Assembly: GCF_020253525.1 (NCBI RefSeq)
Contig: NZ_JADCBK010000027.1
Coordinates: forward strand, 1-64,000
Direction of reading: 5' to 3'
DNA length: 64,000 nt
Origin: Aquidulcibacter sp.
GTDB lineage: Bacteria > Pseudomonadota > Alphaproteobacteria > Caulobacterales > Aquidulcibacteraceae
Positions 360 to 450 of the stretch are shown one piece after another. How positions within the stretch are numbered: the stretch's first letter is position 1; each line of letters starts with the position of its first letter. A program made the translations under genes and the position numbers. Below the pieces are notes generated by a model. The model worked only from the letters and a program-made list of their open reading frames with translations, had not been told where the DNA came from and searched no databases.

Positions 360-450
360 GCGACATCTGGGTCGTCAAGTGTCCGTTTTCTTCGAAAACG
401 GATCGCGTCGCGACGCAGCGAAGCTGCGCACTTGACTACCCCGAGGTCGC
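360..450. other. Predicted three-way-junction fold (structured DNA or RNA)
   Basis: By eye a closed branched fold can be drawn. The outer stem is GCGAC (360-364) with GTCGC (446-450), then a 4x4 internal loop, GGGT (369-372) with ACCC (438-441), one mismatch, and GTCAAGTG (374-381) with CACTTGAC (429-436). Inside are hairpin TCCGTTTTC-TTC-GAAAACGGA (382-402) and hairpin CGCAGC-GAA-GCTGCG (414-428). Both hairpins abut the outer stem with no unpaired base. It resembles no RNA family I can name, and its strand is undetermined. Confidence 0.55.

Follow-up and report, generated by a model that had tools for sequence, protein, structure and literature searches.

What is the densely paired stretch at positions 360–450 of the 64,000-nt Aquidulcibacter sp. 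sequence analysed here (the whole of which is referred to as the window)? The original prediction described an exact three-way junction in a gene-free region, with a symmetric 4×4 loop in its outer part, and suggested either an undescribed structured RNA or a DNA recombination site. The two hairpins that it placed at 382–402 and 414–428, the inner stem 374–381/429–436 and the paired blocks continuing outward to 360 and 450 are all exactly present. The junction is not three-way, as an 11-nt hairpin at 403–413 had been overlooked; because these bases form a third hairpin, the joints are free of gaps only in a four-way junction, or cloverleaf, which has zero unpaired bases at any joint.

Folding and copy alignment define an outer stem with a left arm GCGACATCTGGGTCGTCAAGTG (360–381) and a right arm at 429–450. 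It contains three single mismatches, at 365/445, 368/442 and 373/437, and the supposed 4×4 loop pairs better as the first two of these. The inner eight pairs (GTCAAGTG at 374–381 with CACTTGAC) bear three triloop hairpins: B (382–402; 9 bp, TTC triloop), M (403–413; 4 bp plus triloop, TCGC-GTC-GCGA) and C (414–428; 6 bp plus triloop, CGCAGC-GAA-GCTGCG). In cross-genus comparison the TCAAG of the left inner stem is conserved throughout the order, and a conserved CTTGA lies at 431–435 in the right arm.

The fold is real, and its stability is far beyond chance on both strands and as DNA. RNA folding of 355–455 yields −51.7 kcal/mol against −33.3±3.9 for shuffled sequences (z = −4.7; 0/200), the minus strand gives z = −5.3, and DNA folding of 360–450 yields −35.4 against −16.1±2.3 (z = −8.3). 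The impression of unusually extensive pairing is thus borne out for both strands, as is the statement that the fold matches no recognised RNA class: Rfam 15 has no match at gathering score for the window or for 14 relative loci. Two familiar identities were rejected. The cloverleaf does not correspond to a tRNA, as none of the 13 relative loci scanned has a tRNA gene where the element lies (an ordinary tRNA-His lies elsewhere in locus L224), and for a terminator no convincing T-run follows the stems.

Alignment of copies from this and related genomes places the cloverleaf inside a dispersed repeat of ~215 bp (297–513) with imperfect ~24-bp terminal inverted repeats, TTTTC.ATCT.GACCCATTTTGGTG and CACCAAAGCGCGTCTAGACAAAAA. 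In the aligned copies both terminal repeats carry a hairpin with TTTGGTG/CACCAAA arms. The left terminal hairpin (CCATTTTGGTG...CACCAAAATGG, 310–343) reads CCG(T/C)TTTGGTG...CACCAAAACGG in Phycosocius copies; the right one (TTTGGTG...CACCAAA, 471–496) also occurs elsewhere without the centre, and is followed by TCTAGA (502–507), the counterpart of TCT(A/G)GA at the left end. A one-sided conserved motif, ACAAT(T), adjoins the outer stem at 455–460 on the plus strand and is present in other genera too. Solo terminal hairpins of ~60 bp lacking the cloverleaf, with the left end fused to the right end, are found at L190 (3062–3122) and L200 (53–112). At 432–459, CTTGAC of the inner stem stands ~16 nt from the flanking ACAAT, a sigma-70-like match to an outward promoter; the spacing is alike in the genus designated g33 and may be a coincidence of stem length.

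The region is indeed gene-free, yet the fold is a module of a multicopy repeat within a repeat cluster, and its sequence is not unique. The 131-bp neighbourhood has 54 local matches in the 3.49-Mb genome, corresponding to ~25 places because many matches are the two strands of one palindrome, and these copies are frequently at contig ends. At the DNA level, copies are found in eight of the nine genomes of the genus (Aquidulcibacter/Candidatus Phycosocius), i.e. in seven of the eight besides this one, with 6–24 matches in each of seven, and in 0/52 further genomes from the family and order. Among named genomes, a pattern scan picks out that of strain UKL13-1 (complete chromosome CP012156) as belonging to this genus; plasmid and phage records yielded no similar DNA. 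Some copies have cleanly lost the cloverleaf centre, as palindromes are expected to do. By a crude gene caller, 25 copies lie between convergent, 18 between tandem and four between divergent genes, and this preference for convergent and tandem gaps fits tolerated insertion.

Other repeats accompany the element. A second dispersed repeat at 527–624 (ATGTCATCCCCGCCGG...CCGTCCGGGATGACAT) has 45 matches in the same genome and very often immediately adjoins the cloverleaf element, and further modules at 22–162 and 179–294 (nested hairpins, arms 179–229/244–294) accompany it at other contig ends in the same genome. UKL13-1 and LE19-59.1B each have a divergent single cloverleaf (L220:1603–1689 and L235:1994–2082) spaced identically, by 80 and 86 bp, from the convergent genes that flank it; these are apparently orthologous and long retained.

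A covariance model of 80 genus copies indicates how the fold is kept. Among them 96% of pair cells are paired, and diversity is 0.35 in the loops and 0.03 in the inner stems, such that stems are near invariant and triloops are variable. Only 3 of 40 pairs covary within the genus. This model recovers divergent cloverleafs in the same genus, in another genus of the family and in other families, 25 of which were used for a second model with a short calibration. By the second model, 76 of 398 Caulobacterales genomes (19%), from 18 of 59 genera, contain members, with dozens of copies in some, and weak-scoring matches occur in five of 381 alphaproteobacterial genomes outside the order (~1%). Members share TCAAG/CTTGA beside the junction, where two or three small hairpins, most of them capped by triloops, abut one another; the outer stem typically has 14–21 pairs, with a sequence that differs even among copies within one genome. 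Across genera 93% of cells are paired, 24 of 40 pairs have double changes, and double-change cells number 185, compared with 65 after shuffling, the pairing counts being inflated since relatives were collected by models that reward pairing. In these alignments, compensatory changes preserve the exact cloverleaf geometry between this genus and other Caulobacterales. The relatives show strong covariation, and the pairing is selected or maintained.

The same models could in principle merely have gathered unrelated GC-rich palindromes, with the order-wide likeness due to convergence, a view to which the reward for pairing, the brief calibration and the weak matches outside the order lend something. 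It is very unlikely, as the TCAAG/CTTGA motif turns up together with the same stem lengths, triloops, abutting joints and ACAAT flank, outer stems reach well past the 13 modelled pairs, and 19% of the order is matched compared with ~1% of the remaining class.

The compensatory changes could alternatively reflect selection on a transcript, for example an intergenic 3′-end stabiliser or processing signal kept for its RNA fold. A very stable fold, strong covariation and an intergenic position mostly outside divergent (promoter) gaps are compatible with such an RNA. However, departures from Watson-Crick pairing are G-U in only 11–17% of cases, about the level of random single changes; abundant compensation with G-U unfavoured points to DNA, and a DNA-level cause (a cruciform, a hairpin in single-stranded DNA, or template switching that corrects the arms) is therefore preferred over RNA selection. 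Both strands fold alike, the orientation of the centre is free, Rfam offers no match, and scanning for terminators turned up just two weak sites, close to the level of chance. A transcribed structured RNA is thus considered unlikely, the proposal of an undescribed one being weakened by multicopy dispersal, strand symmetry, chance-level G-U pairs and insensitivity to centre orientation.

That orientation varies strikingly. The 47-bp centre (382–428) reads B-M-C here and in ~48 of 86 parsed genus copies (forward), and C-M-B in ~38 (inverted; ~45%), while the arms mostly hold their orientation relative to the flanks. Both orientations occur in seven of the seven genomes with more than one parsed copy. 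On a tree built from flanks only (126 columns), 19 orientation changes are most parsimonious and at least nine are forced by well-supported branches, although such changes overcount flips because gene conversion can exchange cores between copies. Taking the 19 changes as a count of flips was accordingly toned down, since the core haplotypes reveal a contribution from exchange among copies. Among copies of this genome's own type, orientation tracks the M-loop haplotype (forward GTC, inverted TT), a pattern that suggests few flips and subsequent core exchange. Independent flips are still required by the copy comparison: the Phycosocius-type B stem (TCGG..CCGA) occurs in both orientations with the same M-loops (ACC, ATC, GCC and GTC), and there are two classes of breakpoint, which differ because six inverted copies have turned an arm mismatch together with the centre and 32 have not.

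Individual loci and a second family extend these observations. Upstream of proS (prolyl-tRNA synthetase) the centre is inverted in UKL13-1 and one MAG and forward in this genome and another MAG; the ~90% identity of the left flank carries on without a break into the element's left half, and the right flank is rearranged. These copies look like a single ancestral insertion with opposite centres. The opposite centres and the right flank that differs between species (L009 and L060) appear as if the element had doubled as a rearrangement breakpoint. A locus downstream of a uvrB-like gene, forward in Phycosocius and inverted in UKL13-1, is suggestive, but one genome has an extra repeat that obscures common descent. 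In the second family, that of genus g33, polarity was taken from the one-sided flank (ACAATTG, then a hairpin), and the clear cases split 18 to 12 between the two orientations of the centre; flip-flop is therefore a property of the superfamily.

The proposed DNA recombination site came nearer the mark than the RNA, in that the centre has been repeatedly inverted between inverted arms, but the analysis turned up neither a recombinase nor a site-specific system. As in an inverton, the DNA between inverted repeats occurs both ways, inversion is recurrent, and breakpoints are mostly within the inner 8 bp GTCAAGTG/CACTTGAC. A site-specific recombinase that inverts the 47-bp centre as a switch is nonetheless highly improbable: the centre has no promoter or coding sequence, the sole promoter-like match (432–459) being outside it; no recombinase was noticed beside copies in the regions read; copies number dozens and are unlinked; and six have the second class of breakpoint.

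How the repeat spreads is a separate matter. In the adeno-associated virus (AAV) inverted terminal repeat, nested hairpins (B and C) are held inside a stem (A), and the nested part occurs as flip and flop. A mobile element moving through a folded single strand, like REP/IS200 elements or the T-shaped AAV terminal repeat, might have a nickase that recognises TCAAG/CTTGA and ACAAT, with flips arising from hairpin-primed replication or reinsertion. By analogy, hairpins nested in a long stem and existing in flip and flop forms recall the AAV repeat, and the conserved junction and one-sided motifs, the terminal hairpins and the recurrent spread are in keeping with such movement. Against it, 12 of the 15 genomes examined lack a Y1 (PF01797) RAYT transposase (0/5 genus genomes have one, and seven of ten other element-bearing genomes are without), with positive controls detected; 20 regions inspected around stray ends hold solo hairpins only and no gene bounded by a pair of element ends; and flips need no enzyme. 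We regard this mode of movement as rather unlikely. It is likewise doubtful that the repeat represents a cellular, non-viral class of elements spreading and flipping through folded single-stranded DNA, with an AAV-like cloverleaf and its own putative nickase, kept across a whole bacterial order. The cloverleaf lies inside a chromosomal repeat with no virus or Rep found, such that the likeness to AAV is one of shape only.

The reading that we favour, with a probability of roughly 0.78, is that the cloverleaf belongs to one copy of a dispersed, non-autonomous, non-coding palindromic DNA repeat of REP/MITE-like character, whose stems are kept perfect and whose centre is flipped through template switching or inverted-repeat exchange. 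As judged from its copies, the repeat is multicopy and its centre has undergone several inversions in situ; it is best read as a selfish or structural element. Each strand would extrude as a hairpin or cruciform, mostly while single-stranded at replication forks, template switching or arm-to-arm strand exchange would copy one arm into the other to give perfect stems, and switching would sometimes return across the apex and invert the centre. Perfect stems, compensation without G-U pairs and flips would then follow from one process, template switching, which leaves spread unexplained. An enzyme is required for the element to spread. Its likeliest targets are TCAAG/CTTGA at the junction and the one-sided ACAAT, which are probably recognised by a putative protein that spreads or binds the element. 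Several observations speak against the favoured reading. Neither a transposase nor a clean target duplication was found, and the single locus aligned across species provides no clean empty site, copy flanks often being other repeats. The low number of covarying pairs within the genus is another, and a C/T or C/C arm mismatch (columns 14/78) is retained in most copies, so that arm correction is incomplete. Template switching in yeast is known to make the arms of inverted repeats uniform and to turn their spacers round (PMC8604942), and plastid genomes contain recurrent small inversions bounded by hairpins (PMC6824564). The cloverleaf repeat resembles both in that a spacer between inverted arms flips recurrently and the arms are homogenised, but its spacer is itself a conserved set of hairpins in a dispersed bacterial repeat.

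The closest described relatives are REP and MITE repeats and possibly the CIR repeats of Caulobacter, and the REP, CGTC-REP and MITE definitions each apply only in part. REP, BIME and REPIN sequences (GTAG- or CGTC-tagged) are short dispersed intergenic palindromes, often in head-to-head pairs, and the CGTC REPs typical of alphaproteobacteria are without a dedicated transposase (PMC3733652, PMC3116915). The cloverleaf repeat is likewise a short dispersed intergenic palindrome, but REPs are single hairpins of 20–40 bp with a terminal tag, whereas it has several hairpins in a stem of 20+ bp, the motif TCAAG/CTTGA, a flipping centre and no Y1 transposase in most element-rich genomes; no GTAG or CGTC tag is apparent at the ends of aligned copies of the 215-bp element. 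Bacterial MITEs are multicopy, intergenic, non-coding, shorter than 250 bp and bounded by imperfect terminal inverted repeats (reviewed in PMC10969869). The cloverleaf repeat shares the size, the imperfect ~24-bp terminal repeats and the intergenic, multicopy, non-coding nature, but has no identified parent transposon or target-site duplication, and neither nested multiway junctions nor repeated inversion of a core figures in the MITE definition.

The CIR repeats belong to the same order and are, in the summary given by that review, long and strictly intergenic (Chen and Shapiro 2003, via PMC10969869). No description of the cloverleaf repeat was found in the literature searched, and CIR is the most serious candidate for an earlier one. 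CIR1 and CIR2 have an inverted-repeat layout, with a CcrM (GANTC) site centred in one repeat. A g33 hairpin adjoining the element (GTAAGGCAGANTCTGCCTTAC; L302–L332) is similar, often having GANTC exactly at its dyad (~16 of 43 loci), but copies of the window's genus differ, with GANTC in only three of 86 (0.22 per kb versus 1.22 in the window). If the CIRs are the cloverleaf family, then the family is partly known already, and the fold and its flipping are the novelty.

The repeat would add to the few dispersed palindromic repeats an order-wide family with an exact multiway junction readable from sequence and an interchangeable orientation of its centre. Stems that vary from copy to copy yet remain complementary, together with many natural flips, would make it a test bed for cruciform formation, repair and tolerance in bacteria, as well as for template switching at replication forks and for the movement of palindromes that have no transposase.
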